Source: Bolinopsis microptera
Taxonomy: Eukaryota; Ctenophora; Tentaculata; Lobata; Bolinopsidae
NCBI RefSeq assembly: GCF_026151205.1
Contig: NC_087081.1
Coordinates: 620,001 to 684,000, forward strand
Reading direction: 5' to 3'
Length of the DNA: 64,000 bases
Shown here: piece after piece, positions 1,380 through 52,800 of the stretch
Layout of the letters: every line of letters begins with the position of its first letter
Position numbering within the stretch: the first letter of the stretch is position 1
Position numbers and translations under genes: made by a program
Notes under the pieces: generated by a model
The model's input: the letters and a program-made list of their open reading frames with translations, nothing else
Told to the model about the DNA's origin: nothing
Databases searched by the model: none

Positions 1380-1778
1380 ACATAGTCATAGTACGACTGT
1401 TCGAAAGAAAAGAATTGAAACAAAGAAAAAAATCGAAGATAATTATCCATTTTTGATTTTAGATACACAATCTCGGTGATATCGTGCTATGAATATAATT
1501 TTATAGTTGTATTATATCATGCTTGTGAATATTTGCACTTGTAAATTTTTTAACTCTGCATAAAACAGTAATTCTCTCGGGAAGATGATTCACTTAAAGA
1601 AATTAGTTGCTTGGAGATCTTGGAGGCTTAAAACACTTTAAATTGGGTATGTATAATTTAAATTTATATGGTATGTATAAAAAATGATATGTATAAAGTC
1701 TACAATGGGAAGAAGGGTAAAACCGTGTGCAATAAAATAGTAAACAATTTAATAAATTTCCATATAATTATATATATA
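1380..1778. other. AT-rich spacer, no gene seen
   Basis: This is the presumed promoter or intron region upstream (minus strand) of the proximal first exon. It holds a short TATATATATA tract at 1770-1780, just before the 33-bp array. No open frame or motif could be supported. Confidence 0.4.
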
Positions 1779-9401: not shown

Positions 9402-9936
9402 AGAAACACTGTGTTATTTCAGTTAAGGAGCTCCTCATTATATTTTGAAGTCTTTAGTCGCGAGAGGGCAAATATGCCACCCACTGTTCCAAATACTGTT
9501 AAGTATTCTGAAACGTTAAATTGTACAGGCTCGAGAGTCTCGATTTTTTTGTGACACATGGCAGCCATTTTAGGGTTTGAATAGTCGAATCTGATTGGTT
9601 AAGTTCTGTCACGTGTCAAAAGATATGCTTCACCTCACCCCAGAATTCACATTATGCACGTATGCGGTACGATGTTTTAAATACTTTCAACACTACTATA
9701 TAACAAATAATTTGAGAATATGAGTATGACGTAGAAATGTCGATAAGTTATTCAGCTATTTATTTCCATTAGAATCTGTCTTCACTGAGTCTATTCAGAA
9801 ACAATCAGAAATTTGAACAAAAGAACTATCAAAATGAGACTCAATAACACTACACGAATCCACCAGATGTTTTGAATGTTTTGTAAAATGATTTTTTAAA
9901 TTTGGTATTGTTCCCGTTATGTTAATTACCAACAGC
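9402..9936. other. spacer with one dispersed repeat
   Basis: No gene is seen. Positions 9680-9716 are identical to 51216-51252 (37 bp, core CAACACTACTATATAACAAA). A CACGTG with GATTGG nearby lies at about 9588-9618. Confidence 0.5.
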
Positions 9937-22460: not shown

Positions 22461-25400
22461 GAGTGGTACATATTACTACTACACTTTACACTTTACAGGT
22501 ACAAGGTACACATTACTACTACACTTTACACTTTACAGGTACAAGGTACATATTACTACTACACTTTACACTTTACTGGTGCAAGGTACATATTACTACT
22601 ACACTTTACAGGTACAAGGTACATATTACTACTACACTTTACACTTTACTGGTGCAAGGTACATATTACTACTACACTTTACAGGTACAAGGTACATATT
22701 ACTACTACACTTTACACTTTACTGGTGCAAGGTACATATTACTACTACACTTTACAGAGACAAGGTACATATTACTACTACACTTTACAGGTACAAGGTA
22801 CACATTACTACTACACTTTACACTTTACTGGTGCAAGGTACATATTACTACTACACTTTACAGAGACAAGGTACATATTACTACTACACTTTACAGGTAC
22901 AAGGTACACATTACTACTACACTTTACACTTTACTGGTGCAAGGTACATATTACTACTACACTTTACAGAGACAAGGTACATATTACTACTACACTTTAC
23001 ACTTTACAGGTACAAGGTACATATTACTACTACACTTTACACTTTACTGGTGCAAGGTACATATTACTACTACACTTTACAGGTACAAGGTACATATTAC
23101 TACTACACTTTACACTTTACTGGTGCAAGGTACATATTACTACTACACTTTACAGGTACAAGGTACATATTACTACTACACTTTACACTTTACTGGTGCA
23201 AGGTACATATTACTACTACACTTTACAGAGACAAGGTACATATTACTACTACACTTTACAGGTACAAGGTACACATTACTACTACACTTTACACTTTACT
23301 GGTGCAAGGTACATATTACTACTACACTTTACAGAGACAAGGTACATATTACTACTACACTTTACAGGTACAAGGTACACATTACTACTACACTTTACAC
23401 TTTACTGGTGCAAGGTACATATTACTACTACACTTTACAGAGACAAGGTACATATTACTACTACACTTTACAGGTACAAGGTACATATTACTACTACACT
23501 TTACACTTTACTGGTGCAAGGTACATATTACTACTACACTTTACAGAGACAAGGTACATATTACTACTACACTTTACAGGTACAAGGTACACATTACTAC
23601 TACACTTTACACTTTACTGGTGCAAGGTACATATTACTACTACACTTTACAGAGACAAGGTACATATTACTACTACACTTTACAGGTACAAGGTACACAT
23701 TACTACTACACTTTACACTTTACTGGTGCAAGGTACATATTACTACTACACTTTACAGAGACAAGGTACATATTACTACTACACTTTACAGGTACAAGGT
23801 ACATATTACTACTACACTTTACACTTTACTGGTGCAAGGTACATATTACTACTACACTTTACAGAGACAAGGTACATATTACTACTACACTTTACAGGTA
23901 CAAGGTACACATTACTACTACACTTTACACTTTACTGGTGCAAGGTACATATTACTACTACACTTTACAGAGACAAGGTACATATTACTACTACACTTTA
24001 CAGGTACAAGGTACACATTACTACTACACTTTACACTTTACTGGTGCAAGGTACATATTACTACTACACTTTACAGAGACAAGGTACATATTACTACTAC
24101 ACTTTACAGGTACAAGGTACACATTACTACTACACTTTACACTTTACTGGTGCAAGGTACATATTACTACTACACTTTACAGAGACAAGGTACATATTAC
24201 TACTACACTTTACAGGTACAAGGTACACATTACTACTACACTTTACAGGTACAAGGTACACATTACTACTACACTTAACAGGTACAAGGTACATATTACT
24301 ACTACACTTTACAGGTGCAATGTACACATTACTACTACACTTTACAGGTACAAGGTACATATTACTACTACACTCTACACTTTACAGGTACAAGGTACAT
24401 ATTACTACTACACTTAACAGGTACAAGGTACATATTACTACTACACTTTACAGGTACAAGGTACATATTACTACTACACTTTACACTTTACAGGTACAAG
24501 GTACATATTACTACTACACTTTACAGGTACAAGGTACATATTACTACTACACTTTACACTTTACTGGTGCAAGGTACATATTACTACTACACTTTACAGA
24601 GACAAGGTACATATTACTACTACACTTTACAGGTACAAGGTACACATTACTACTACACTTTACAGAGACAAGGTACATATTACTACTACACTTTACAGGT
24701 ACAAGGTACACATTACTACTACACTTTACATATTACTACTACACTTTACAGGTACAAGGTACACATTACTACTACACTTTACAGGTACAAGGTACACATT
24801 ACTACTACACTTAACAGGTACAAGGTACATATTACTACTACACTTTACAGGTGCAATGTACACATTACTACTACACTTTACAGGTACAAGGTACATATTA
24901 CTACTACACTCTACACTTTACAGGTACAAGGTACATATTACTACTACACTTAACAGGTACAAGGTACATATTACTACTACACTTTACAGGTACAAGGTAC
25001 ATATTACTACTACACTTTACACTTTACAGGTACAAGGTACATATCACTACTACACTTCACAGGTACATATTACTACTACACTTTACATATTACTACTACA
25101 CTTTACAGGTACGAGGTACACATTACTACTACACTTTACAGGTACAAGGTACATATTACTACTACACTTTACAGGTACAAGGTACACATTACTACTACAC
25201 TTTACATTTTACAGAGAGTGGTACATATTACTACTTCACTTTACAGGGACAAGGTACATATTACTACTACACTTTACACTTTACAGGTACAAGGTACATA
25301 TTACTACTACACTTTACACTTTACAGGTACAAGGTACATATTACTACTACACTTTACAGGTACAAGGTACATATTACTACTACACTTTACAGGTACAAGG

Positions 25401-28400
25401 TACATATTACTACTACACTTTACAGGTGCAAGGTACATATTACTACTACACTTTACAGGTACAAGGTACACATTAGTACTACACTTTACACTTTATAGGT
25501 ACAAGGTACATATTACTACTACACTTTACACTTTACAGGTACAAGGTACATATTACTACTACACTTTACACTTTACTGGTGCAAGGTACATATTACTACT
25601 ACACTTTACAGAGACAAGGTACATATTACTACTACACTTTACAGGTACAAGGTACATATTACTACTACACTTTACACTTTATAGGTACAAGGTACATATT
25701 ACTACTACACTTTACACTTTACAGGTACAAGGTACATATTACTACTACACTTTACACTTTACTGGTGCAAGGTACATATTACTACTACACTTTACAGAGA
25801 CAAGGTACATATTACTACTACACTTTACAGGTACAAGGTACACATTACTACTACACTTTACACTTTACTGGTGCAAGGTACATATTACTACTACACTTTA
25901 CAGAGACAAGGTACATATTACTACTACACTTTACAGGTACAAGGTACATATTACTACTACACTTTACACTTTACAGGTACAAGGTACATATTACTACTAC
26001 ACTTTACAGGTACAAGGTACACATTACTACTACACTTTACACTTTACTGGTGCAAGGTACATATTACTACTACACTTTACAGAGACAAGGTACATATTAC
26101 TACTACACTTTACAGGTACAAGGTACATATTACTACTACACTTTACAATTTACAGGTACAAGGTACATATTACTACTACACTTTACAGGGACAAGGTACA
26201 TATTACTACTACACTTTACAGGTACAAGGTACATATTACTACTACATTTTACTGGTACAAGGTACACATTACTACTACACTTTACAGGTACAAGGTACAC
26301 ATTACTACTACACTTTACACTTTACTGGTGCAAGGTACATATTACTACTACACTTTACAGAGACAAGGTACATATTACTACTACACTTTACAGGTACAAG
26401 GTACACATTACTACTACACTTTACACTTTACTGGTGCAAGGTACATATTACTACTACACTTTACAGAGACAAGGTACATATTACTACTACACTTTACAGG
26501 TACAAGGTACACATTACTACTACACTTTACACTTTACTGGTGCAAGGTACATATTACTACTACACTTTACAGAGACAAGGTACATATTACTACTACACTT
26601 TACAGGTACAAGGTACACATTACTACTACACTTTACACTTTACTGGTGCAAGGTACATATTACTACTACACTTTACAGAGACAAGGTACATATTACTACT
26701 ACACTTTACAGGTACAAGGTACACATTACTACTACACTATACACTTTACTGGTGCAAGGTACATATTACTACTACACTTCACAGAGACAAGGTACATATT
26801 ACTACTACACTTTACAGGTACAAGGTACACATTACTACTACACTTTACACTTTACTGGTGCAAGGTACATATTACTACTACACTTTACAGAGACAAGGTA
26901 CATATTACTACTACACTTTACAGGTACAAGGTACACATTACTACTACACTTTACACTTTACTGGTGCAAGGTACATATTACTACTACACTTTACAGAGAC
27001 AGGGTACATATTACTACTACACTTTACAGGTACAAGGTACACATTACTACTACACTTTACAGGTACAAGGTACACATTACTACTACACTTAACAGGTACA
27101 AGGTACATATTACTACTACACTTTACAGGTGCAATGTACACGTTACTACTACACTTTACAGGTACAAGGTACATATTACTACTACACTCTACACTTTACA
27201 GGTACAAGGTACATATTACTACTACACTTAACAGGTACAAGGTACATATTACTACTACACTTTACAGGTACAAGGTACATATTACTACTACACTTTACAC
27301 TTTACAGGTACAAGGTACATATTACTACTACACTTTACAGGTACAAGGTACATATTACTACTACACTTTACACTTTACTGGTGCAAGGTACATATTACTA
27401 CTACACTTTACAGAGACAAGGTACACATTACTACTACACTTTACAGGTACAAGGTACATATTACTACTACACTCTACACTTTACAGGTACAAGGTACATA
27501 TTACTACTACACTTAACAGGTACAAGGTACATATTACTACTACACTTTACAGGTACAAGGTACATATTACTACTACACTTTACACTTTACAGGTACAAGG
27601 TACATATCACTACTACACTTCACAGGTACATATTACTACTACACTTTACATATTACTACTACACTTTACAGGTACAAGGTACACATTACTACTACACTTT
27701 ACAGGTACAAGGTACATATTACTACTACACTTTACAGGTACAAGGTACACATTACTACTACACTTTACATTTTACAGAGAGTGGTACATATTACTACTTC
27801 ACTTAACAGGGACAAGGTACATATTACTACTACACTTTACACTTTACAGGTACAAGGTACATATTACTACTACACTTTACACTTTACAGGTACAAGGTAC
27901 ATATTACTACTACACTTTACAGGTACAAGGTACATATTACTACTACACTTTACAGGTACAAGGTACATATTACTACTACACTTTACAGGTACAAGGTACA
28001 TATTACTACTACACTTTACAGGTACAAAGTACACATTAGTACTACACTTTACACTTTATAGGTACAAGGTACATATTACTACTACACTTTACACTTTACA
28101 GGTACAAGGTACATATTACTACTACACTTTACACTTTACTGGTGCAAGGTACATATTACTACTACACTTTACAGAGACAAGGTACATATTACTACTACAC
28201 TTTACAGGTACAAGGTACATATTACTACTACACTTTACACTTTATAGGTACAAGGTACATATTACTACTACACTTTACACTTTACAGGTACAAGGTACAT
28301 ATTACTACTACACTTTACACTTTACTGGTGCAAGGTACATATTACTACTACACTTTACAGAGACAAGGTACATATTACTACTACACTTTACAGGTACAAG

Positions 28401-31400
28401 GTACACATTACTACTACACTTTACACTTTACTGGTGCAAGGTACATATTACTACTACACTTTACAGAGACAAGGTACATATTACTACTACACTTTACAGG
28501 TACAAGGTACACATTACTACTACACTTTACACTTTACTGGTGCAAGGTACATATTACTACTACACTTTACAGAGACAAGGTACATATTACTACTACACTT
28601 TACAGGTACAAGGTACACATTACTACTACACTTTACACTTTACTGGTGCAAGGTACATATTACTACTACACTTTACAGAGACAAGGTACATATTACTACT
28701 ACACTTTACAGGTACAAGGTACATATTACTACTACACTTTACACTTTACTGGTGCAAGGTACATATTACTACTACACTTTACAGAGACAAGGTACATATT
28801 ACTACTACACTTTACAGGTAGAAGGTACACATTACTACTACACTTTACACTTTACTGGTGCAAGGTACATATTACTACTACACTTTACAGAGACAAGGTA
28901 CATATTACTACTACACTTTACAGGTACAAGGTACACATTACTACTACACTTTACACTTTACTGGTGCAAGGTACATATTACTACTACACTTTACAGAGAC
29001 AAGGTACATATTACTACTACACTTTACAGGTACAAGGTACACATTACTACTACACTTTACACTTTACTGGTGCAAGGTACATATTACTACTACACTTTAC
29101 AGAGACAAGGTACATATTACTACTACACTTTACAGGTACAAGGTACACATTACTACTACACTTTACACTTTACTGGTGCAAGGTACATATTACTACTACA
29201 CTTTACAGAGACAGGGTACATATTACTACTACACTTTACAGGTACAAGGTACACATTACTACTACACTTTACAGGTACAAGGTACACATTACTACTACAC
29301 TTAACAGGTACAAGGTACATATTACTACTACACTTTACAGGTGCAATGTACACGTTACTACTACACTTTACAGGTACAAGGTACATATTACTACTACACT
29401 CTACACTTTACAGGTACAAGGTACATATTACTACTACACTTAACAGGTACAAGGTACATATTACTACTACACTTTACAGGTACAAGGTACATATTACTAC
29501 TACACTTTACACTTTACAGGTACAAGGTACATATTACTACTACACTTTACAGGTACAAGGTACATATTACTACTACACTTTACACTTTACTGGTGCAAGG
29601 TACATATTACTACTACACTTTACAGGTACAAGGTACATATTACTACTACACTTTACAGGTACAAGGTACACATTACTACTACACTTTACAGGTACAAGGT
29701 ACACATTACTACTACACTTAACAGGTACAAGGTACATATTACTACTACACTTTACAGGTGCAATGTACACATTACTACTACACTTTACAGGTACAAGGTA
29801 CATATTACTACTACACTCTACACTTTACAGGTACAAGGTACATATTACTACTACACTTAACAGGTACAAGGTACATATTACTACTACACTTTACAGGTAC
29901 AAGGTACAAGGTACATATCACTACTACACTTCACAGGTACATATCACTACTACACTTCACAGGTACATATTACTACTACACTTTACACTTTACTGGTGCA
30001 AGGTACATATTACTACTACACTTTACAGAGACAAGGTACATATTACTACTACACTTTACAGGTACAAGGTACACATTACTACTACACTTTACAGGTACAA
30101 GGTACACATTAGTACTACACTCAACAGGTACAAGGTACATATTACTACTACACTTTACAGGTGCAATGTACACATTACTACTACACTTTACAGGTACAAG
30201 GTACATATTACTACTACACTTTACACTTTACAGGTACAAGGTACATATTACTACTACACTTAACAGGTACAAGGTACATATTACTACTACACTTTACAGG
30301 GACAAGGTACATATTACTACTACACTTTACAGGTACAAGGTACATATTACTACTACACTTTACAGGTACAAGGTACATATTACTACTACACTTTACACTT
30401 TACAGGTACAAGGTACATATCACTACTACACTTCACAGGTACATATTACTACTACACTTTACATATTACTACTACACTTTACAGGTACAAGGTACACATT
30501 ACTACTACACTTTACAGGTACAAGGTACATATTACTACTACACTTTACAGGTACAAGGTACACATTACTACTACACTTTACATTTTACAGAGAGTGGTAC
30601 ATATTACTACTTCACTTTACAGGGACAAGGTACATATTACTACTACACTTTACACTTTACAGGTACAAGGTACATATTACTACTACACTTTACACTTTAC
30701 AGGTACAAGGTACATATTACTACTACACTTTACACTTTATAGGTTCAAGGTACATATTACTACTACACTTTACAGGGACAAGGTACATATTACTACTACA
30801 CTTTACACTTTATAGGTACAAGGTACATATTACTACTACACTTTACACTTTATAGGTTCAAGGTACATATTACTACTACACTTTACAGGTACAAGGTACA
30901 TATTACTACTACACTTTACACTTTATAGGTACAAGGTACATATTACTACTACACTTTACAGGTACAAGGTACATATTACTACTACACTTTACACTTTACA
31001 GGTACAAGGTACATATCACTACTACACTTCACAGGTACAAGGTACATATTACTACTACACTTTACAGGTACAAGGTACATATTACTACTACACTTTACAC
31101 TTTACAGGGACAAGGTACATATTACTACTACACTTTACACTTTACAGGTACAAGGTACATATTACTACTACACTTTACACTTTATAGGTACAAGGTACAT
31201 ATTACTACTACACTTTACAGGGACAAGGTACATATTACTACTACACTTTACACTTTACAGGTACAAGGTACATATTACTACTACACTTTACACTTTACAG
31301 GTACAAGGTACATATTACTACTACACTTAACAGGTACAAGGTACATATTACTACTACACTTTACACTTTACAGGGACAAGGTACATATTACTACTACACT

Positions 31401-33554
31401 TTACACTTTACAGGTACAAGGTACATATTACTACTACACTTTACACTTTATAGGTACAAGGTACATATTACTACTACACTTTACAGGTACAAGGTACATA
31501 TTACTACTACACTTTACACTTTACAGGTACAAGGTACATATTACTACTACACTTTACACTTTACAGGTACAAGGTACATATTACTACTACACTTTACAGG
31601 TACAAGGTACATATTACTACTACACTTTACACTTTACAGGTACAAGGTACATATTACTACTACACTTAACAGGTACAAGGTACATATTACTACTACACTT
31701 TACACTTTACAGGGACAAGGTACATATTACTACTACACTTTACACTTTACAGGTACAAGGTACATATTACTACTACACTTAACAGGTACAAGGTACATAT
31801 TACTACTACACTTTACACTTTACAGGTACAAGGTACATATTACTTCTACACTTTACACTTTACAGGTACAAGGTACATATTACTACTACACTTTACACTT
31901 TACAGGTACAAGGTACATATTACTACTACACTTTACACTTTACAGGTACAAGGTACATATTACTACTACACTTAACAGGTACAAGGTACATATTACTACT
32001 ACACTTTACACTTTACAGGTACAAGGTACACATTACTACTACACTTTACACTTTATAGGTACAAGGTACATATTACTACTACACTTTACAGGGACAAGGT
32101 ACATATTACTACTACACTTTACACTTTACAGGTACAAGGTACATATTACTACTACACTTTACACTTTACAGGTACAAGGTACATATTACTACTACACTTA
32201 ACAGGTACAAGGTACATATTACTACTACACTTTACACTTTACAGGGACAAGGTACATATTACTACTACACTTTACACTTTACAGGTACAAGGTACATATT
32301 ACTACTACACTTTACAGGTACAAGGTACATATTACTACTACACTTTACACTTTACTGGTGCAAGGTACATATTACTACTACACTTTACAGGTACAAGGTA
32401 CATATTACTACTACACTTTACAGGTACAAGGTACACATTACTACTACACTTTACAGGTACAAGGTACACATTACTACTACACTTAACAGGTACAAGGTAC
32501 ATATTACTACTACACTTTACAGGTGCAATGTACACATTACTACTACACTTTACAGGTACAAGGTACATATTACTACTACACTCTACACTTTACAGGTACA
32601 AGGTACATATTACTAGTACACTTAACAGGTACAAGGTACATATTACTACTACACTTTACAGGTACAAGGTACAAGGTACATATCACTACTACACTTCACA
32701 GGTACATATCACTACTACACTTCACAGGTACATATTACTACTACACTTTACACTTTACTGGTGCAAGGTACATATTACTACTACACTTTACAGAGACAAG
32801 GTACATATTACTACTACACTTTACAGGTACAAGGTACACATTACTACTACACTTTACAGGTACAAGGTACACATTAGTACTACACTCAACAGGTACAAGG
32901 TACATATTACTACTACACTTTACAGGTGCAATGTACACATTACTACTACACTTTACAGGTACAAGGTACATATTACTACTACACTTTACACTTTACAGGT
33001 ACAAGGTACATATTACTACTACACTTAACAGGTACAAGGTACATATTACTACTACACTTTACAGGTACAAGGTACATATTACTACTACACTTTACACTTT
33101 ACAGGTACAAGGTACATATCACTACTACACTTCACCGGTACATATTACTACTACACTTTACATATTACTACTACACTTTACAGGTACAAGGTACACATTA
33201 CTACTACACTTTACAGGTACAAGGTACATATTACTACTACACTTTACAGGTACAAGGTACACATTACTACTACACTTTACATTTTACAGAGAGTGGTACA
33301 TATTACTACTTCACTTTACAGGGACAAGGTACATATTACTACTACACTTTACACTTTACAGGTACAAGGTACATATTACTACTACACTTTACACTTTACA
33401 GGTACAAGGTACATATTACTACTACACTTTACACTTTATAGGTACAAGGTACATATTACTACTACACTTTACAGGTACAAGGTACATATTACTACTACAC
33501 TTTACACTTTACTGGTGCAAGGTACATATTACTACTACACTTTACAGGTACAAG
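22461..33554. repeat. 11 kb hierarchical minisatellite
   Basis: Basic units are 33 bp (GGTACAAGG with TACATATTACTACTACAC and TTTACA) and a 40-bp form with an extra CTTTACA. Variant heads GGTGCAA and GAGACAA set up a 106-bp higher-order unit (40+33+33) that repeats in long runs; for example GGTGCAAGG recurs at 22830 and 22936. A rarer variant (GAGAGTGGTACA) recurs at about 25212, 27777, 30591 and 33290, marking a superunit of about 2.6-2.8 kb. Since 106 is not a multiple of three and the unit lacks stops, all three plus frames stay open for kilobases. These frames are not genes. Confidence 0.95.
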
Positions 33555-33823
33555 GATGTGAGGATTGAGCCCCTGTTTACACCTATAGAATCAGCCAACT
33601 TCCTACAAAAGGGTAACAATGCTGATAAGGCTAGGTTCGATATATCAGCAAGAGGAGTGTGGAGCACATTTGAGAGGACTTTCTTTGACGTGCGCGTTTT
33701 CAATCCCAAATTGCCTTGAACATATCAAGGAAAGACCATGCCACAGTTCTACACTCTGCACGAGAATGAGAAAAAGAACCAGTACATGAACCAAAAGCCC
33801 CTCTTCAAAAATCTTTCAATCTG
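33555..33823 (+). mobile_element. retroelement C-terminal domain fragment, copy 3
   Basis: Directly after the last array unit the frame reads DVRIEPLFTP, then DKARFDISARGVW, FERTFFDVRVFNPKLP, an in-frame TGA at 33717-33719, TYQGKTMPQFYTLHENEKK and a stop near 33821. The DVRVFNP and NEKK blocks match copy 1 (DIRVSHP, NEKEKK). The fragment lacks the C-terminal third that copy 2 retains, so copies 2 and 3 cover complementary parts of the same domain and lie on opposite sides of the array. Confidence 0.55.
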
Positions 33824-33917: not shown

Positions 33918-34010
33918 TTTGAATGTGATGCCGGGGAGACACAATCTACTCGAGGCAAATGATGACATGGGGTCTGAAGATGGATACTATGAAGATGATT
34001 ACTTACCAAA
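33918..34010 (+). CDS. APBB: Fe65 candidate first coding exon
   Basis: The likely start is ATG 33928 (MPGRHNLLEANDDMGSEDG, then YYEDDYLPK). The donor AAA|GTAAGA is phase 2. ATTTTAG before 33918 could instead be an acceptor, in which case translation starts further upstream. The exon is acidic, as Fe65 N termini are. Its link to the gene rests on phase and composition. Confidence 0.5.
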
Positions 34011-37000
34011 GTAAGATGATTTCTTAAGTTACTGAACATTGATTTTTAAAGACCCTTGCTATGAGTAATTTGATTTACAATTATATGTGATACTGAAAAG
34101 ATTCAACATTATTATCATATAGCTCTAAACCATTCACAATTATATTAAAATAACTTTTTTGTATTTCAGGGTAGATAATCTGAGAGCAGATGGTTACGAG
34201 GAGGAGTTTAAGAAAGCTATTTCAGTTCTTGAACAGAAGCACAAACACCCCAGAAATGGAGAAGTTCACAACATTTGGTGAGAAATGAGCAAATAAATAC
34301 AGAAATTGTACAGTTATACAGTATTATACGTACAATATAGCCTGAAATCTAGTCATTACAGCTCATTACATTACATCGTAAAAAACCTAAAAGCTGTGAT
34401 GTTTTGTTTTACACATAAAAGAAGTCCATGCACAATGCACATGCAGATATATTTACATAAAGTAAAGTAAAGTAAAGTAAAATTTATGACATCACATCAT
34501 CACACATGTCTACAAACTATCATCGCACTGTGTGAAAAAATATATAATAAATATTTCCCCACCAACATTAATTAATTATCAAATACAATATTTAAAAACA
34601 ATTTCATCAAAAACATTATCCTATTTTAAAAACTTCCCAGTGGAATAAAGATTTATAAAACGCTTCTTTGCCACATAAGGATGGAACCAAAGATAATTGT
34701 TATGTTTCTCTTTATTACTGACATAACTGGCTCCCTCAATTCTTACTAAAACTTCATTAGAAACATTCCAAAAAAAGCAATCATTTGTAATACTTTTAGA
34801 AATCATATCTATCTTATATCTTTCTAATTTTATTTTAAAACCTAAAACTGTCACAGAGTTCTTGACGTCCGGAGGGAGTTTGTTCCAATATGGAATAACT
34901 CGCTCCGGGAGAAAAGACTTCTGGATATTCTTGACCTTTGTCACACTTTTACTACATCTATTGGATGAAACCAGATTAAGACCTGATCTGCTTGGTCTGA
35001 ACATGTCTGAACCATAATCAGTCATACCATTAATAACCTTAAAAGCTTCAATAAGGTCCCCACGTATTCGCCGCTCTGCCAGCGTTGTCAAATTGAGGAT
35101 TTCCAGTCTACGGCTGTAAGGAACATATGTTGGCTTCAGAATCATGCGATAGTATGAATATGTTCTATAAAATAGTTAGCTGATGTTTGATATAGCATGA
35201 ACGAGTAATTGTTATTAATTATTATTCAGCTGTTATTACTTATGTAAACTAATTACAACACTACAAATCTATTACATTTATTGAGGTATGAGATATGATA
35301 GACGAGCGTAAGTGTTGACGTGCAAAGGACTGCTGTGAGTGTACTTGAAGATTACTCATCCTCCTCCTTCTCATCAAAACTATTCTCATCAAAACTACTA
35401 TCTGGACTGAAGGTATTGCGTTTACAGTGTTTATTGTGCTTCTGAACATTGAACTCTTGATAATATAACTATGTCAAATAATCAGAGCTCAGACATTAGT
35501 CTCCACTCTTGTGAGCGCCCTTTAGAACATTTGAACTTTTCATTCCAGTCTGAAAAATCAGAGAACTGTAACAATTGTCTGTCAAAAGACATCAAGATTG
35601 ACTTTTTAGAAAAAAAGTTGTCTTTATTGAATGAAATTATCAGAACTAGTGATCTCATTGCTCAGTACAATGATAGTCTCATATCAGATCAAACTCAAAT
35701 ACAAGAACAGAGTTTTAAGTGTGAAAAGTTGCTGCCAAACTTATCAGAGGAGATTGAATGTGAGATCATAACCATTACCCCTCAGTCACACGTTGTTATC
35801 AATCAAGTAGAAGCGTTTGATGTAGATGACATTGTTGTGGAAGATGTTGTATCGGACAGTTTGTTTGTTGACAACGATGTCGTGGACAAGGTTGTTCCAC
35901 AGGAGGTTGTTGGAAACGAGATTGTTATCAGTGAGATTGTTGTTAACGAGGTTATGGCAGACGAGGATGATGTGTCTGATCTCCCTGTATCTACTGCTAC
36001 TGGTGAATCACGGATCAACACCCCTAAGCCCAGAGACAAATATCCAAACTTGGTCCCTGCCCCTGTCTACGATCCTATAACACCGGGGCCAATGAATATA
36101 TCTGTAACTTGTTCCCCATCACCAGTGAAACCAGTTACCCTACTAGATGATGGTCCATTCTCTAAATTTTCACTTGATCTATTAATGGAAGAACTTGAGT
36201 TCAGTCACGGTTTTAAAAACAGGAAATCGGTTTATTTTGGTGACTTTCCCTATGAGTATTCAGGTGCAACACATGACCCAAAAAGTGTACACAATGATTC
36301 CTACCTTGCTAAACTCAGCTCCTACATTAATGTGATATTACCCAATTTCAGACACAATAGTATTCTCGTCAATCTATATGAAACTGGAGCAGAGTTCATG
36401 CCAGCTCATAGCGATTCTGAATCATGTATTGTAGAACACTCTGATATTGTAACCATTTCACTTGGTGCGACGAGAACACTGCAAATTAGATCAAACGGCA
36501 GCAATGAAGTTGTGGGCTCTGTGCAGCTTCAGCATGGAGATGTCTTCATCATGTCCAAATTGTCTCAGGCTGACTTTCAACATGAGATACTGCCAGACGA
36601 AATGTGTGATGAACCCCGGATCAGCATCACCCTAAGACTGATGAAGCCCCCTAGGATCACTCAGTCAACTGAGTTTGGTCTGCGTTCACCGCCCCCACCC
36701 ATCCCTCATTCAGGACACAAACTGACAGACTCTTCTTCACCTGCACTCTCAGTTTGCAAACAGTCAGCTAAAGCTTCACAAAAGTCTGTCCTATTCATAA
36801 GCAGCTCTATGTTCAGGTTTCTTGATGCGGACAAGTTATCATCGTCCACTGTTAGTGCTAGTAAACTGTTTTATCCTGGGGCTGATGCCAAAGTAATGTT
36901 AAATAAACTAAAAACTGACCTACACTCTGTTCCATCCCCATCTATTATTTATATTATGACAGGAACTAATAATGTGAACACAGTCTATTTTGGCTCAAAG

Positions 37001-40000
37001 TCACTGAAGGATGCAGCGGGTGACATTAGTAATCTCTTAAATTATCTCAAGTCAGTGTATCCGAATGCAACAATTAATGTTCTCAATATTCTTCCCAGGA
37101 GTACAAAAGGCCGCAATGATGTTGTGGCAGAGCTGAATAAGGTTATTAAGGATATGTGTAGCAAAGATTCTTGTTTTAATTACATTAGCACCCATAATTT
37201 ATTTAACTATAATAGAAGTGGATTCAGGAAAGAATTTTATTTTGCCAGACCATCTGCAAAAATATCTGATAACTGTCACCTCAATACAAGCGGTGTTATT
37301 CGACTTGCTAAATTTCTGAAGTATTGGGCCCATAAGCAAGTTTGAATTTTCAGAAAGATTGTTAACATTTTTTTCATCTAGATAAGGGATAATTACACAT
37401 TGTTCCTCATGTTTATTGAAGTTTTAGAAAGTTTTGTTATTATCTCATACAAATTTGCCAGTTCTGCAATTTATCTTATTCTGACAAGTTTATAGCAGCA
37501 TAAATTGGAAAATTTTCATGCTCTCACAGCAGTTCTTGCATTAACCCGTGCATTAGTAAAATCACAGTTTCATACCATGCCAAAAAGCTTGCAGTGGGAC
37601 ATTGCAACATGCAGGGAGGACTAACAGGTTTGCCAAAATGTCTTGAAATCCAAGATCTAATCTGGAAAGAGAAATTAGATGTTTTATGCCTGAATGAAAC
37701 AAATCTTAAGTCGGATATTGACTCAGCCAGTCTAAACCTACCCAAGAATTTTACTTTTATCCGCAAAGACCGTCCTAACGACAATGGTCATGGGGGATGT
37801 GGCATTCTCATCAGTGAGCACATAAAGTTTAAAATGATTCAACTAAACTTAGTTTTGCAATATGACCAAATCGAGGCTATTTGGATCCATCTTACAGATT
37901 GCAATATTTTCATCTGCTGTTTCTACAGATCTGAGTTGTTTAGTCCTCTTGACAAATTTTTAGATTATATGACAGACTGCATGATGAGTATAGGAAGTAA
38001 GAATGTTATTTGGCTGGGTGATGTAAATGTAGACCAAAACAACATCAGCAGTATGAACTATAAGAAATTAGACATTACAATGAAAATGTTTGGAATGGTA
38101 CAGGTAGTTCAGGATATTACCCGCATTGCTAAACTAGGAAACAGAATCACAAAGACCACAATCGATGTTGTCATAACAAACACTTACTCCAAGTTTCTTG
38201 ACTGCAAAGTCCTTGATGATTGTATAGGAGATCATCAGGTCGTTAAGTTCATTGTCGATTTCAATGTGCATAAGGCCTCAAAATTCAAGAAGTTACTAAT
38301 AAGAGATCACAGCAAAATGAATGTTACTGCTCTTAAAGAATTTTTGGAAACTTGTGATTATAGACCAATAATAGATTCAACTAGTCTGAATGATGCAGTT
38401 GATGGTTTAAACGAACATATTGATCACTACTATGATCACTTCTGTCCAATTAAACAAATTAAGTGCCATAGTGATTACATCCATAAGCCATCTCCAGAAT
38501 TTTTAGAAAGTAAGAAATTGAAAGGGAAACTTTACCGTAAATTTTTAACACACAACAAGAACAGACGTATACATCCAAATGGTCTTATACACTGTAATAA
38601 ATGTGACTCATTATGGATGGCATATAAACGGCAGAGAAACTATTCAACCTATTTGTCTAGAATTAATAGGAAGACTAACTTAGCAACAAAACTGAAAGCC
38701 AAGTGTGCCATGAATGATCTAAAGGGTGTATGGAAAACGATAAAGACAGCATCAAATCTGCCTGTTAAAGCTAACAATATCAATAACAATCTTGATGCTG
38801 AAACCACCAATAAATATTTTGCTGAAATAGGTCCAAAGATCCAAGCAGAAGTGCAGCTGGAAAATGAAAATGAATTTCTATCTTATCTACAAAATGAGCA
38901 GATTGACAACGAGACCAGCTTGAATAGCTTTACTGAAATAACTGAGTCCAATATCTTAGACTATGTGGCAAGTATCCCTTGTAGCAAATCCACTAATGAT
39001 CATATACCATTGAGAGTGTTTAGACAAATTTTACCTGCATTTATTGCTCCATTAACACATCTTGTAAATTTGAGTTTATCCAGTGGCATCATGCCAAACA
39101 GCTGCAAGGTTGCAAAAGTCACCCCAATCCATAAGGATGGTGATACTGAGAATCCTAGTAATTATCGACCAATCTCAATTTTACCGATTCTTGGAAAGTG
39201 CATCGAATTTTGTGTGAACTCCCAACTGACTCAATATCTTGATGAAAAGGGAATACTTTCAGAGCATCAATATGGTTTCCGTAAAGATCACTCTACAACT
39301 TATCTCATGTTAGATCTGTTTGATCGTATATTTACTGCTAAGAACAGTGCCAAGCATCCTGCAATTATCTTCCTGGACATCAGAAAGGCATTTGATACTG
39401 TTAACCATGATATTCTCATTCAAAAGCTGAAGCATTATGGAATAAAAGATACTGCATTGAGCTGGTTTAGGAGCTTCCTCACAGATAGATTACAGCAAAC
39501 TAGAGTTGGGAGTAGGATAAGCAGTTTACATTCATTGAACTCTGGAGTGCCTCAAGGAAGTATATTAGGACCAATTCTATTCAGCATTTTTATCAATGAC
39601 CTGCCTAATGCATGCCTATTTTCTAAACCTTATCTATTTGCTGATGACGGTGCATTATATTTTGACAATATATCTAGAGGAAACTATGGTAACATCAAAC
39701 AAGAGTTGAAATTAGTTATCAGATGGCTTCAGGCTAATAAACTATCCCTGAATAATGAAAAAACAAAACTAATGATCCTTGACTCTAAGCCTAACCTTGA
39801 TGCCATCCTTGTTGAAATTTGTGATGACCTTACTTTGGTAATCTGTGAAACTAAATCCCATAAGTACCTTGGACTTATAGTTGACAGCAGATTGACATTT
39901 AATGAACATATTGATAACATTAAGAAAAAGATATCCAAAAGAATTGGTGCTATGTATAGATCAAAAAAACTTCTCCCTCTTAAGTTCAGGAAGATGTTTG

Positions 40001-43000
40001 CTAATGCACTTATGTTGCCACATTTTGACTACTTAGACACCATCTGGTCAAGGACATATAAAAAACGACTAGGAGAGTTAGATATCATGTACAAAAAGGT
40101 TGCTAAAATAGCCCTAGATGTAAACATCAGAGAGAGGTCGGTTAATGTATACAAAAATATGGGATGGCTTCCTCTCCATTTGAGACGACAGGTTCATCTT
40201 AGCTCATATATGTACCGTATAATCAATGAAACATGTCCAAAGCATTTTATCGGGAAATTCTCGTATATTTCTGGTGGATCACGTGAGGCAGAAAACTGCA
40301 ATCTTTATACTCCTAAATCAAGATCTCACAAGGAGTTTAACTATCTAGGAACTAAGGCCTGGAACATATTACCAAAGTCCCTTAGAGAGTGTGACGACGT
40401 TAAGAAATTTTCTAAGTTATACAAAGAAACTCTTATGAATATGGTGCTAACTGATGAGAATTACCAAGGGGATAACTCTTACGATAAATTCATGATCCCA
40501 CCCAACACTAGCCAATGTATCTAGGCAGTTATGTTATTTCGGTTAAGTTATCTCAGTACATAAGTGAATCCAATCTATCCCCTGCAATCAAAGTATTTCC
40601 ATGCCTATTAAGCTATTACAGGAAATTAGGAACATCAGTGGAAAGGTGCACTGTCAATCATTATTGCTCCATACCTCCAGTCCTCCTGTTATGTGCAATT
40701 CTCACTGCTATGTATGCTCCTCATTTGTATCAATTATATTGATGCTACATTGTTATTGAATATGAAATAATTTTCAACCGTATTAATTTATTAACTTATT
40801 GTAAATAGCAAGTTTGACAAAGGGATTACGTTTATTTTACCCGGAGTTCGTTTAAGTTTAGTATTGTAAATAGTTAATTTGACGAAGGGAATACGTCTAT
40901 TTTACCCTGAGTTATGTTTTAGTTCAATCTTGACACAATTTTAAAATTATAATTTAATTATTTTATATATATGTATTGTCCATAACTAGGGTGGCCTGCT
41001 AACAGAACCATGATCTGCCTTGATTCATCCTTCAGCACAGAGAAAAGCTCCTTTTTTTTATACATTATGATTACAGAGGATCTGATATTTAGATATATAT
41101 TGCTGTGCTGTAAAAATTGACTTTATTTATTTATTTATTTATTTATGACATAAAATTTTACCATATAAACTGGCAAACTACTTAAATTTAAAGTAGAATG
41201 TTAGAGTTGCAGACGCCCTAATTCTAGTCAAAGCAACATTCATTACCCGAAGTACGTCTCTCTGTATCCTAGGATGGAAAAGATTAGTAATAACATTTAG
41301 TTTACAAAAGATAAATGTAATGCATTATAAATTATACATAAACCACAACGCTATTTGCACACTGCATTTAATGTAGGTGCGTGTGTATGTTTTGACTACT
41401 TCCTTGTGTACAGAAATATAGCAAAGACCAAGGTATTTCACTCTACTACTACAACGCATGTTTATAAACAAGCGTTGTATAATTTGTTAATAATTCGTTA
41501 ATAATTATAATTTGTTTATCGTCTAGTACCATGTAAAATGTAAACTGCCTCAACTTTGCCTTGATTTATACTCTCCTTCAACAGGAAATACCTCTATTTT
41601 GCAGATCGTTTAGTGATGAGATGATATAACATTATAACATAGTGCTCTGCAAACACACTAACCTAGGATCTGTCTAAAACAGCAAACTTTAACCTTTAAT
41701 ATCTCTTATTAAACTTGGTAGTGTTTAGTAGAGTAGGGAGCATCACAACTCTCGACAGACAAAGTGAAACAAGCAAATGACTGGTGAAAAATAAATGAAT
41801 TATAATCGACGTTTCGGCACTCATTGGCCTTTTACTAAGATTACTGATTATAAGTTACGAGGGTCTCGCTTAGGTAGGCGAGCCCAATTATAGGAACTAA
41901 ACAAGTAAGTAAGGTGGACCCCAACTTGGCTAAACAGTAGTTTTAAATAATATGCAGCTCTATAAAAATAATGCAAACAACAGCTTACAAGTCAATTATT
42001 TCATTTAGGTTTCACCAGTTATTTGGCTTGTTTCACTTTGTTTCACTTTGTCTGTCGAGAGCAGTGATGGTCCCTACTAAACACTACAATGTAAATTAGT
42101 TAGTTACATCTTATACATGATGTCCTTGTCGCATAGGAGCGGGGGTAGTGAATACTGTGTTTCGTTCAGTTGAAGTCTGCAAATAATCAAAGTCATGACA
42201 CGGAAAAATCTATTTTACAGGTAAAACTAGACAGAATAAGGAATAAGTAAAACTAGACGATTAGCACACTAACCACATTTTTCACTGCGCATTCACTGTC
42301 ATATTGATAGCGCTGGCAGGTGCTGATAAGACATGGGCTCATTTATTTTTAATTGTTTTAACTTCAAACAGAGCACTATACTGATACAGATCACTATACT
42401 ATCGACTCTGCACTGCCCACTAATCGTTAATCCAACACAAGTAGCTTATAAAATAGTGCGTGTGATCATCTGTCGTATCAAATCAAATTATTTTTCACTA
42501 TGTTAATAAATCATGATATGCAAGTTTTAATTTTTAAAGTTTTTTTAATTTGTTATGAATAAGCGTATATCATAATTTTAAATTCTCATATTTACGTATA
42601 TTAAATAAAATTATATTGTTATGTATCATATGATTTTGTAATCATTGGCCGGTGTACCAGAAACCGGTCCCCAAACAAACAAAGTACACACCACGCTCTC
42701 TTATAAGTTTTTCAAAGCATCTCAATTAAATTCTAAAATTTTGCAACACGAATGAATATTCAATAAATTAGATATAGAAAATGGTGCTTGATAGGAAATA
42801 GAAAGTGTCTTCCAGTATCAGTAACCTTGTTAAAGTAGGATGCGGATAGTAGGATGCAGATAGTAGGATGTAGGATGCGGATAGTAGAATGTAGGATGTG
42901 GATAGTAGGATGTAGGATGCGGATAGTAGGATGTAGGATGCGGATAGTAGGATGTAGGATGCGGATAGTAGGATGTAGGATGTGGATAGTAGGATGTAGG

Positions 43001-46815: not shown

Positions 46816-49800
46816 CGCAGTATTGACAGTGATCTTGACAAACTGTCTTCTTCTCTTATCTCCAGCAAGGAGAGGTAGGTGCTTGAGAACATGAATATTT
46901 GAGAAAATAATAATATTTGATAATTATGCGATAAAATGGTTTAATGAAATTACTTTGTCCAGTCTCCCAAGAGGGTTTACAATGATAAACAACCGACTAT
47001 TTTAAGTTCAAACAGTCACGTGGTATTTGTATTAATCCGTAAATTCATCATGTTTTGATACTTGATACTCTATTTACCGCAAACCCCGATTTACCATAAT
47101 ATATCTTATAATTGGTTTGCAATAGAGGCAAAGACTTTACCTACCAACAAAATAACCTGACTAAGTTAAAATTAAGTGGAAAAACATACCGGACAGACAG
47201 ACAAACATACAAATACAGACATACAGTATCACTGAGCAGCAGTAACAGATACCACCACCGACAATACAGTATCACTGAGCAGCAGTAACAGATACCACAC
47301 CGACAATACAGTATCACTGAGCAGCAGTAACAGATACCACACCGACAATACAGTATCACTGAAGCAGCAGTAACAGATACCACACCGACAATACAGTATC
47401 ACTGAGCAGCAGTAACAGATACCACACCGACAATACAGTATCACTGAGCAGCAGTAACAGATACCACACCGACAATACAGTATCACTGAGCAGCAGTAAC
47501 AGATACCCACACCGACAATACAGTATCACTGAGCAGCAGTAACAGATACCACACCGACATACAGTATCACTGAGCAGCAGTAACAGATACCACACCGACA
47601 TACAGTATCACTGAGCAGCAGTAACAGATACCACACCGACATACAGTATCACTGAGCAGCAGTAACAGATACCACACCGACATACAGTATCACTGAGCAG
47701 CAGTAACAGATACCACACCGACAATACAGTATCACTGAGCAGCAGTAACAGATACCACACCGACATACAGTATCACTGAGCAGCAGTAACAGATACCACA
47801 CCGACATACAGTATCACTGAGCAGCAGTAACAGATACCACACCGACAATACAGTATCACTGAGCAGCAGTAACAGATACCACACCGACAATACAGTATCA
47901 CTGAGCAGCAGTAACAGATACCACACCGACAATACAGTATCACTGAGCAGCAGTAACAGATACCACACCGACATACAGTATCACTGAGCAGCAGTAACAG
48001 ATACCACACCGACATACAGTATCACTGAGCAGCAGTAACAGATACCACACCGACAATACAGTATCACTGAGCAGCAGTAACAGATACAGACATACAGTAT
48101 CACTGAGCAGCAGTAACAGATACCAACACCGACAATACAGTATCACTGAGCAGCAGTATCAGATACCACACCGACAATACAGTATCACTGAGCAGCAAGT
48201 AAACAGATACCACACCGACAATAACAGTATCACTGAGCAGCAAGTAACAATACCACACCGACAATACAGTATCACTGAGCAGCAGTAACAGATACCACAC
48301 CGACTATACAGTATCACTGAGCAGCAGTAACAGATACCACACCGACAATACAGTAATCACTGAGCAGCAGTAACAGATACCACACCGACAATACAGTAGC
48401 ACTGAGCAGCAGTAACAGATACCACACCGACAATACAGTATCACTGAGCACAGTAACAGATACCACAACCGACAATACAGTATCACTGAGCAGAGAACAG
48501 AGTCAACCAGATACAGTACCACACACCGACATACAGTATCACTGAGCAGCAGTAACAATACCACACCGACAATACAGTATCACTGAGCAGCAGTAACAGA
48601 TACCACACCGACAATACAGTATCACTGAGCAGCAGTAACAGATACCACACCGACAATACAGTATCACTGAGCAGCAGTAACAGATACCACACCGACAATA
48701 CAGTATCACTGAGCAGCAGTAACAGATACCACACCGACATACAGTATCACTGAGCAGCAGTAACAGATACCACACCGACATACAGTATCACTGAGCAGCA
48801 GTAACAGATACCACACCGACAATACAGTATCACTGAGCAGCAGTAACAGATACCACACCCGACATACAGTATCACTGAGCAGCAGTAACAGATACCACAC
48901 CGACAATACAGTATCACTGAGCAGCAGTAACAGATACCACACCGACATACAGTATCACTGAGCAGCAGTAACAGATACCACACCGACAATACAGTATCAC
49001 TGAGCAGCAGTAACAGATACCACACCGACAATACAGTATCACTGAGCAGCAGTAACAGATACCACACCGACAATACAGTATCACTGAGCAGCAGTAACAG
49101 ATACCACACCGACAATACAGTATCACTGAGCAGCAGTAACAGATACCACACCGACAATACAGTATCACTGAGCAGCAGTAACAGATACCACACCGACAAT
49201 ACAGTATCACTGAGCAGCAGTAACAGATACCACACCGACAATACAGTATCACTGAGCAGCAGTAACAGATACCACACCGACAATACAGTATCACTGAGCA
49301 GCAGTAACAGATACCACACCGACAATACAGTATCACTGAGCAGCAGTAACAGATACCACACCGACAATACAGTATCACTGAGCAGCAGTAACAGATACCA
49401 CACCGACAATACAGTATCACTGAGCAGCAGTAACAGATACCACACCGACAATACAGTATCACTGAGCAGCAGTAACAGATACCACACCGACAATACAGTA
49501 TCACTGAGCAGCAGTAACAGATACCACACCGACAATACAGTATCACTGAGCAGCAGTAACAGATACCACACCGACAATACAGTATCACTGAGCAGCAGTA
49601 ACAGATACCACACCGACAATACAGTATCACTGAGCAGCAGTAACAGATACCACACCGACAATACAGTATCACTGAGCAGCAGTAACAGATACCACACCGA
49701 CAATACAGTATCACTGAGCAGCAGTAACAGATACCACACCGACAATACAGTATCACTGAGCAGCAGTAACAGATACCACACCGACAATACAGTATCACTG

Positions 49801-52800
49801 AGCAGCAGTAACAGATACCACACCGACAATACAGTATCACTGAGCAGCAGTAACAGATACCACACCGACATACAGTATCACTGAGCAGCAGTAACAGATA
49901 CCACACCGACAATACAGTATCACTGAGCAGCAGTAACAGATACCACACCGACAATACAGTATCACTGAGCAGCAGTAACAGATACCACACCGACAATACA
50001 GTATCACTGAGCAGCAGTAACAGATACCACACCGACAATACAGTATCACTGAGCAGCAGTAACAGATACCACACCGACAATACAGTATCACTGAGCAGCA
50101 GTAACAGATACCACACCGACAATACAGTATCACTGAGCAGCAGTAACAGATACCACACCGACAATACAGTATCACTGAGCAGCAGTAACAGATACCACAC
50201 CGACAATACAGTATCACTGAGCAGCAGTAACAGATACCACACCGACAATACAGTATCACTGAGCAGCAGTAACAGATACCACACCGACAATACAGTATCA
50301 CTGAGCAGCAGTAACAGATACCACACCCACAATACAGTATCACTGAGCAGCAGTAACAGATACCACACCGACAATACAGTATCACTGAGCAGCAGTAACA
50401 GATACCACACCGACAATACAGTATCACTGAGCAGCAGTAACAGATACCACACCTACAATACAGTATCACTGAGCAGCAGTAACAGATACCACACCGACAA
50501 TACAGTATCACTGAGCAGCAGTAACAGATACCACACCGACAATACAGTATCACTGAGCAGCAGTAACAGATACCGCACCGACAATTTTACCAGACTTTTT
50601 AATTGGTAGTGTGAACAGATTAAATATATTTAATATATTTCATATTAATTGTTATAGGTAGATCTTTTAGCTCTGTGAATTAAATTAACCTTGAACCAAA
50701 ATGTTAAACTTTAATAGAGGCATTCTATTTAGAACCTTAAACTCACGAAATCGCACCAGTCAAAGATTTGCAAAGAGGTAGAATTGAATCTCATGAACTT
50801 GAATGGGGATTAAACTGCACCACATGTAAATTACAAAAGTTGTCATTAAATCTGGGCTATGAATACTTTCTAACTCATTGTGTTTTTACTAACATTATGT
50901 TTCGTCAGGTGGTCTTCACAGACAGATGTAAATGATGACGTCAGCGATTTTACTGTTGAAGTTAATGGTGAAGTTAATGGTGAAGTTAATGGTGAAGTTA
51001 ATGGTGATGTTAATGATTTTAACGACGTCACAGTTGATGGTGATGGTGACGTCACAGTTGATATTAATGGTGACTTCACTGTTGATGTTAATGGTGAGTA
51101 CGTAAGTTTACAAGCTCCTGAAATGGAAGATAACAAGGAAACAAGTCAGTCTTCTCTACAAGTTCACAACAGTCCTATCAGATCTGCTCATAGTTCTAAC
51201 AGGTTTTTAGGTTTTAATACTTTCAACACTACTATATAACAAATAATTTGAGGAGATTCTCTCAAGATGATTTTTAAATCGAAGATTTCAAGAGCCTAAA
51301 CTGTGTATGATTCGCCTCTCCAAACAAATCTAAGGTTTTTAGGTGGTGTTTTTTGTGATAATTTGCAAAGCCCCTTGTAACAGCCACGTAGCCAGTTGTT
51401 CAGTAAAAAAGGGACAAGTCTGAAGCCCCTAGTAGTACCATGCTCATTCAGTTATACCAGTTACATTTTCTAGTTAATTAAATAATGTTTGAAAATTGGT
51501 GCTATATTTGATGATCTTAACGGAAATAAATTAAATTAAGTAAAAACTCTGACATCACATCATCACACAAAGCATAACATCCGCAGCAGCTGTTCCAGGT
51601 CCTAAACTAACATAATAATAATAATAAGTTTTATAAATTATAAATTTATACATCGCTTTATAGCCATAAAGAACTCAAAACCCAAAGATTCAGTTCAAAC
51701 CATCTAAAGTAGACTCAAGAGTAACATGTACATAAGAACTTATTTTTATGAAGTATGGATTTTACAATCTTTTATTTCAGTTTTTTTTTTACAATCTTTT
51801 ATTTCAGTTACAATCTTTTATTCTAGCAGTTACAATCTTTTATTCTAGCTTTTGCAACATTTTAATTGCTCTCTTATCGGTAGTGTTATCTCAACTTGCT
51901 GTTACACCGACACGTCGTGCTGTACGCCTTGGCTTTTGTAAAATGGATTTTTCCGTCGAACATCTGAACAGATTTGAAAAGGAGCTATCGTCAGCGATGA
52001 ATGAAATTTTGAAGATGTCAAAAGCACAAAGCGTTACAGAACTGAATCATGCGAGATTAATGGCTGTAAATAAAGATCCCTTGGCTACTGCAGTTGAAAA
52101 TCTTTCTAAGCTAATGACTAGTAATCTTGAACTTTGTAAATGTGCAGCCAGTACGATAGACAAACTTAAATCAGATCAGCTGAACTATCAGAAAGACCAG
52201 ATTAAACAGCAACAGGAGCAACTCGACTCTTTTAAAACAACTGTTCATACCGAGATGAAGACAGCGTGGAGCGATATCGTGAAGAAGAACTGCGAGACAA
52301 CTACAAGTACTCCGTCGATCAACAGTATAAAAACAGCTGTGAAAACCGTAGTTGAAGACGACATCCGTAGTAAGAATTTCATTATCTACGGTGTACCGGA
52401 GAATTATTCCCCTGATCCACACTTAGTGGCAGAAGAAGTGATCGAATTGATTTGGGAATCCTCAGGGTGTGATCCTAAAGTTGTGGCAGCAAATTCTATC
52501 GGGACTAAAACAACTTCAGGCAGTGGTAAACCGAGACCAATAAAAGTGACATTGGCTTGCACGGAATCAGTAAAAATGGTTCTTGCTCGAGCAAGAAATC
52601 TGAAGAAATCTAAATGTACAGCGTACCACACATGGTACATCACACCTGACAGAAGCAAGGAGGAGAGAGCAGCTCATCAGAAACTTGTTGTCAAAGTAAA
52701 GGAAATGATCACTGATGAGCCAACAAAGTATCATTATATTAGAGACGGCAAGATTTTCAGTGTAGATAAGGTTAAGGTGTAACATTCGGTGTTTTTGATA

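Follow-up and report, generated by a model that had tools for sequence, protein, structure and literature searches.

A LINE of the ctenophore Bolinopsis microptera with an AlkB-type dioxygenase and an SGNH esterase fused in ORF1, and with host spliced leaders at the 5' ends of its copies

The window analysed here is a stretch of 64,000 nucleotides from the ctenophore Bolinopsis microptera (NCBI RefSeq assembly GCF_026151205.1, contig NC_087081.1, positions 620,001 to 684,000 of the forward strand). Its sequence includes a retroelement about 5.9 kb long that is a long interspersed nuclear element (LINE), young and multi-copy. The first open reading frame of the element, ORF1 (35471-37345, + strand), encodes 624 amino acid residues. 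By the reading frame, Pfam and the predicted fold, these form an N-terminal helix (a likely coiled coil), a dioxygenase domain of the AlkB type and an SGNH esterase domain. A second open frame with a reverse transcriptase follows. The fusion of AlkB and SGNH is real, occurs in multiple families of this genome and is, as far as searched, a domain architecture new to LINE ORF1s of the esterase type.

The AlkB domain comprises ORF1 residues 217-393 (36119-36649, + strand) and is of the ALKBH2/3 type of Fe(II)/2-oxoglutarate (2OG) dioxygenases. The Pfam profile PF13532 matches ORF1 with E = 3.6e-18 and 66.9 bits, the cut-off being 31.2 bits. A phmmer search with ORF1 gave human ALKBH3 at 8.5e-15 and ALKBH2 at 1.8e-6, while for a 66-row profile of the window's group of relatives the two enzymes are tied, both at about 1e-30. 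The predicted ORF1 fold has a double-stranded beta-helix in the AlkB part, which superposes on ALKBH2 at 1.7 Å. ALKBH2 is the best fold match among the 50 rows listed by VIA-align, and human ALKBH2 and ALKBH3 show 23-31% identity in the fold-comparison rows. The sequence evidence confirms the AlkB call far beyond chance. An earlier note, made from the letters of the window, had assigned an ALKBH2/3-type domain to residues 245-392, and Pfam, phmmer, the profile, the predicted fold and conservation all concur with it. The domain is indeed there, but the fold actually extends from about residue 217 to 393. The profile match and the double-stranded beta-helix, for which the same note had proposed a check, are both present.

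The residues named in that note sit at the ORF1 positions it gave. His313, Asp315 and His371 are the predicted iron ligands, Arg383 and Arg389 are placed to bind 2OG, and Glu317 aligns with the Glu that follows the His-x-Asp motif in ALKBH3 and ALKBH2. In those enzymes this Glu contributes to the recognition of 1-methyladenine (m1A) and 3-methylcytosine (m3C). Across a joint 100-row alignment His313, Asp315, Glu317, His371 and Arg383 are invariant in the 99 rows that cover their positions, and Arg389 is retained in 98 of 99. In the alignment of the first search, position 303 is Tyr in 61 of 65 rows and Phe in the other four. The clustering of the ligands in the model was judged from the superposition on ALKBH2 and from sequence alignment, rather than from distances between coordinates.

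The SGNH hydrolase domain spans ORF1 residues 437-622 (36779-37336, + strand). Its characteristic residues are highly conserved in the 100-row alignment: Ser446 in 99 of 99 rows, Gly470 in 97 of 98, Asn500 in 98 of 99, and Asp600 and His603 each in 96 of 97. The context of Ser446 in the window ORF1 is SSS, not GDS, and Asp directly precedes this serine in 9 of 66 rows. From the single sequence the match is weak (8.5e-5, below the Pfam cut-off), with the esterase of the ZfL2-1 ORF1 (4c1b) at 0.084. With the profile built from the window's group, 4c1b ranks first among SGNH chains (1e-10); with that of a second group of relatives, described below, it stands at 9.2e-8, behind a bacterial chain at 1.8e-9. 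The SGNH fold is clear in the predicted structure. In the best 50 rows of the fold comparison the SGNH rows are bacterial and PAF-AH esterases and three designed scaffolds, and 4c1b is not among them. The esterase proposed earlier is borne out clearly by profile, fold and conserved residues and weakly by the single sequence, and the assignment to a LINE ORF1 is one on which sequence profile, predicted fold and conservation agree. The Pfam scan of ORF1 found no RNA recognition motif (RRM). Residues 34-79 (35570-35707, + strand) form a long helix by DSSP of the model, with pLDDT block means of 70-86. This helix, on which the earlier note is silent, is likely to form a coiled coil for self-association, by analogy with ZfL2-1 (PMC3905857).

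Human ALKBH2 and ALKBH3 are host repair enzymes, and unlike the ORF1 domain neither is fused to SGNH or located within a mobile element. Some plant RNA viruses carry AlkB domains. They are likewise selfish RNA-based replicons with an AlkB of their own, a likeness drawn from their description. Among the closest known organizations is that of ZfL2-1 and the type IV ORF1s of CR1/L2 elements, which have in common with the present ORF1 an N-terminal coiled coil (here a predicted helix), an SGNH domain and the lack of an RRM, and which have an ORF2 with endonuclease and reverse transcriptase, as here (PMC3905857, PMC4120745). The difference is the AlkB dioxygenase located here between helix and esterase. 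The ZfL2-1 protein has a dimerising coiled coil and binds lipid (PMC3905857), and in the survey's own set the esterase ORF1s were found only in vertebrate subgroups (PMC4120745). The words 'alkb', 'oxygenase' and 'demethyl' appear nowhere in the text of these two papers. No LINE with AlkB was seen among the titles and abstract openings listed from the open-licence PMC literature, nor in the text of PMC4120745, PMC3905857 and PMC5408684; Repbase lay outside this scope, so absence in print is not shown. Ty3/Gypsy (Tat/Ogre) elements of orchids, absent from the earlier note, also encode an AlkB-type 2OG dioxygenase, with activity on RNA demonstrated (PMC9289625). However, those are plant elements with long terminal repeats (LTRs) and an additional ORF, and their enzyme is an N6-methyladenine (m6A) demethylase, whereas the present one is a LINE with an ALKBH2/3-type domain fused to SGNH in ORF1. 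The features of the orchid-type LTR element were not found here: a scan of 35100-41300 for terminal direct repeats of at least 40 nt gave none, Pfam gave no integrase match in ORF1 or ORF2, and a (TTTA)n tail is present instead.

The other parts of the element, all on the + strand, are those of a LINE. The 5' untranslated region (UTR) spans 35286-35470. The open frame of ORF2 (37504-40524) has a mechanical start at 37594 (GTG) and its first ATG at 37609; no ATG ahead of the endonuclease was seen in the family sequences read. The reverse transcriptase domain (39127-39879) matches RVT_1 with 5.8e-37, and human LINE-1 ORF2p is among the closest solved relatives of ORF2 (2.3e-13). The putative APE-type endonuclease (37648-38244) gives weak Pfam matches at 2e-4 (Exo_endo_phos) and 0.0014, below the cut-offs, and RNase H has no Pfam match in ORF2 up to E 1. 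The 3' UTR occupies 40525-41121, of which 586 nt were matched across the genome, and the (TTTA)n tail at 41122-41146 ends the element. Two other fully read copies, L031 and L032, are 99.4-99.5% identical to the window copy in alignments of about 5.86 kb that reach from the 5' UTR to the tail; the ORF2 frame is open in L032. Target-site duplications were inspected by eye at three copies and none was resolved; Rfam gave no match over 34000-42000 up to E 0.1. The sole direct repeat found in 35100-41300 lies within the 3' UTR and consists of two 52-nt units (40797-40848 and 40862-40913) that are 87% alike.

Relatives were collected in two protein searches. The first, with the window ORF1 (P0001), gave 65 relatives from 7997 candidates scored, making 66 rows with the query. 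All 66 match PF13532 and 44 match Lipase_GDSL_2 (E 0.01 or better). Five of the 65 relatives are NCBI-named proteins, all of them hypothetical proteins of the ctenophore Mnemiopsis leidyi. P0064, in which a PC4 domain but no SGNH is visible, was not counted as a LINE ORF1. Four distant matches served as queries of the second search, which gave 31 rows, one of them the row of the first query. Members of the second group show the canonical GDSN motif and, in 14 of 34 rows, a PHD finger (E 0.05 or better), a domain that occurs in other CR1/L2 ORF1 types (PMC4120745). The joint alignment of 100 rows holds 96 proteins, P0001 and P0064 included, and four families of the window genome. The second-group profile is led by ALKBH2 (5.3e-25), with Caenorhabditis elegans NMAD-1 at 2.9e-8 and ALKBH5 at 6.5e-5. 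The nearest human AlkB varies, being ALKBH3 for P0001 alone, ALKBH2 and ALKBH3 equally for the window profile and ALKBH2 for the second group.

A tree of AlkB domains was built from 42 of the 97 usable LINE rows, taken at steps with P0028, P0042 and P0064 set aside, and from 10 non-LINE AlkBs. The non-LINE candidates P0097 and P0104 were left out; in P0097 the AlkB part continues into GDSNT, which makes it look like a fragment of a LINE. All 42 LINE rows lie on one side of a branch with support 100/97, opposite the 10 non-LINE AlkBs. The window's group forms one clade (99/92), and the second group is held together in only 42% of bootstrap trees. This fits a single capture of AlkB by LINEs, judged against a small outside sample of 10 AlkBs. 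A search of 560 candidates for the donor gave only 9 matches, P0097 among them, and none bears a species name that could point to it; a search of viral contigs gave no relative of P0001.

P0001 has at least 81 matches in the window genome (264.65 Mb in 232 contigs; 71 of 982 candidates scored). In the contigs listed, C1-C13 extend to 13 Mb or more and those with higher numbers to less than 62 kb, in keeping with the 13 chromosomes of the ctenophore Hormiphora. Twenty full-length ORF1 copies of the family are 98.99-99.89% identical (mean 99.53) and have no internal stop; in L012 the frame is shifted at the last codons. When the changes in these 20 copies are pooled, the ratio of nonsynonymous (N) to synonymous (S) rates is 0.09 in the AlkB domain (3 N, 9 S; one-sided binomial p 1.2e-4) and 0.33 in SGNH (12 N, 10 S; p 0.011). 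For the N-terminus the ratio is 0.51 (17 N, 9 S; p 0.08) and for the linker 0.75 (4 N, 2 S). By this computation on sequences, purifying selection acts on ORF1.

The ORF1 proteins of families B/C, D and E of the same genome are 38-42% identical to that of the window and 36-60% among themselves. A search with P0051 gave 77 or more matches (77 of 786 candidates scored), which include family A, further copies of family E and a family with a 551-aa frame. In the copies listed of the latter, e.g. G000:C2:17781857, a TAG lies inside the matched stretch, perhaps a natural end that has shifted or a stop codon that is recoded. The query P0063, from the second group, gave at least 67 matches (67 of 984 candidates scored); their frames fall into five or more length classes (749/750, 707, 742, 710 and 679 aa), and many span both domains. 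ORF2 of L034 and L036 is 98% identical in amino acids but ORF1 only 60%, and ORF1 has therefore been exchanged between elements. Swapping of ORF1 is described for the Jockey superfamily (PMC4120745). PF13532 itself has at least 151 matches in this genome (150 of 587 candidates scored), which need not all lie in LINEs. They include candidate host ALKBH genes, e.g. C5:18690430. Some of the AlkB-type domains lie in open frames of 2225-3388 aa (G000:C10:16875843, C3:14441692, C12:8338315, C9:15868177, C12:2469580 and C9:11092850), possibly a different kind of element.

The 5' end of the window copy carries a spliced leader (SL), SL1 (35246-35285, + strand), which is joined straight to the 5' UTR, matches the exon of the SL1 array exactly and had been overlooked in the earlier note. 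Thirty family loci (L001-L030) were searched for the opening 21 bases of the 5' UTR, used as an anchor. The anchor is present in 28 of them and missing in L025 and L028, and in each of the 28 a leader lies just upstream: SL1 in 12 loci, SL2 in 13 and SL3 in 3. L021 retains only the 3' part of SL2. The independent loci number 27 because L015 and L026 have a common flank. In families B, C and E, too, one copy of each starts with the window's SL1. The exon of a tandem array with a period of about 434 bp is SL1 as well (G000:C1:14490815-14549191), the array having been looked for with SL1 only. In ten overlapping loci of the array the exon is followed by GTAAG at 37 of 39 sites read and by GTAAAG at the other two, and further downstream by CTCTTTTGG, which we take to resemble an Sm site. 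Sites with up to 2 mismatches number 838 for SL1 and 1499 for SL2 in the whole genome, the reversed-pattern controls giving 0. The leader of the ctenophore Hormiphora resembles SL1, has a similar length and ends in TTTGAG as SL2 does (PMC8527503).

The leader type shows no link with the phylogeny of the 20 full-length copies (8 changes against a shuffled mean of 7.2, with 15 of 17 inner branches weak). The LINE RNA therefore appears to be trans-spliced to a host leader before reverse transcription, anew in each cycle of retrotransposition. The joint lies at the last base of the leader in 27 of 28 anchored loci, and in a second copy of family D the leader stands 12 nt further downstream, at a second acceptor that immediately follows an AG (L048 compared with L036; 596 of 600 positions identical beyond). 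Both observations make template switching a less likely source of the leader. The final AG of an inserted leader could serve as the next acceptor. In L011 four extra bases, TGAG, equal to the last four of a leader, stand between SL1 and the 5' UTR, possibly a remnant of an older leader; no AG explains them, which speaks against trans-splicing. Site-specific insertion into SL genes was rejected, as the upstream flanks differ between copies, except in L015 and L026. Retrogenes tagged with SL in dinoflagellates are likewise genomic copies whose leader came from reverse-transcribed, trans-spliced mRNA; they are host retrogenes, whereas here an autonomous LINE apparently gains a leader each cycle (PMC12014239). 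Trans-splicing has also been proposed for LINE-1 chimeras with 17 mRNAs (PMC13174262). No LINE with leader exchange in each cycle was seen among the titles and abstract openings listed from the open-licence PMC literature. Such exchange suggests how LINEs can persist in genomes that trans-splice their mRNAs, and that many dispersed leaders in such genomes may be retrocopies and not SL genes.

Dispersed SL1 and SL2 sites that were read are followed by varied sequence, several by one repeat family. Two more SL2 leaders lie in the window (about 9676-9716 and 51211-51252), each before unrelated sequence; they probably mark other SL-tagged retrocopies.

Beyond the fold, the ligand residues, the fusion, the multi-copy families, the purifying selection and the leader exchange, all obtained by computation, we infer catalysis, its substrate and a benefit to reverse transcription. 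The RNA of the LINE would receive a host leader by trans-splicing, and the ORF1 protein (ORF1p) would multimerise through its N-terminal coiled coil and coat the element's own RNA. With Fe(II) and 2OG the AlkB domain would oxidatively strip methyl groups of the Watson-Crick face (m1A, m3C) from this RNA or from the cDNA. Removal of these blocks to the reverse transcriptase would allow more copies to reach full length, while the esterase may act in contact with membrane or lipid, as proposed for ZfL2-1. AlkB enzymes do remove methyls of this kind and aid reverse transcription in tRNA sequencing (PMC9072684). That a multimerising ORF1p with an ALKBH2/3-type demethylase and a LINE-type esterase cleans its own RNA of blocking methyls has, in our judgement, slightly better than an even chance of being correct. 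A broader proposal is more tentative, and we would put it somewhat below even: that a ctenophore LINE lineage captured the enzyme once and kept it as a template cleaner, against blocking methyls or host marks, while the host spliceosome re-heads the RNA with SL and the AG of the leader regenerates the 5' end each cycle, whatever the promoter. If true, demethylation of nucleic acid would be part of the life cycle of the LINE itself, and whether RNA methylation limits retrotransposition could be tested directly in a phylum that branched early among animals.

Several observations weigh against the cleaning of its own RNA by ORF1p. The N-x-Y motif reported earlier is spelled in the window ORF1, but its Asn301, at the position of a 2OG contact in AlkB, is kept in just 30 of 65 rows. 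ORF2 is broken in L031, that is, in one of the two other copies fully read. The rate test pooled distinct changes against the majority codon, without a tree or a correction for transition bias. The 3' UTR occurs at at least 40 places in the genome, window included (40 of 144 candidates scored). Upstream of 19 of the 40 scored 3' ends lies an ORF1 match, which for C25 is 8.6 kb away. The other 21 have none listed, and truncation therefore seems common. However, several full-length ORF1 copies are absent from these 40 ends and a yardstick in the form of an AlkB-less LINE from the same genome is lacking, so that the counts neither support nor refute template cleaning.

Other roles of the AlkB domain may be considered. 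It could erase a host mark, m6A in RNA or N6-methyladenine in DNA (6mA), from the element RNA or the new copy as a counter-defence and not as a remover of blocks. The profile of the second group does reach the 6mA enzyme NMAD-1 and ALKBH5, far more weakly than ALKBH2, and the AlkB of the orchid Gypsy elements acts as an m6A demethylase in vitro, with a role in host surveillance of transposable elements proposed (PMC9289625); we consider this unlikely. It is quite unlikely that the domain mainly binds RNA or single-stranded DNA in place of the missing RRM. Known RNA-binding domains are absent from esterase ORF1ps (PMC3905857), the Pfam scan of this ORF1 agrees, and structures of ALKBH2/3 are DNA-bound according to their titles, but a domain that merely binds would not be expected to keep its iron and 2OG ligands nearly invariant, at 98-99 of 99 rows.

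Repair of alkylation damage to bases of target DNA or newly made cDNA during integration would agree with the fact that ALKBH2, the best fold match, was solved on duplex DNA (again by structure titles). Target-primed reverse transcription exposes single-stranded cDNA, which also counts for such repair. However, ALKBH3 is closer than ALKBH2 by single-sequence search and the present data do not separate DNA from RNA substrates, and we regard this role as very unlikely. The odd SSS context of the nucleophile and the SGNH score below the cut-off might suggest a decayed or mis-called domain without function; this is contradicted by the open frames, the conserved ligands and the confident folds, and is extremely improbable. 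Cleaning of the template by the AlkB domain is the function we favour.

Beside the element, on the - strand, lies an ORF of 174 aa (34621-35145), which by eye resembles the tail of another LINE ORF2; it has no sequence match to ORF2 of the element and no Pfam match above cut-off. The window is rich in very large satellite arrays, located at 1777-6244, 22487-33555, 47221-50585 and 55097-57466, one of which is about 11 kb long.

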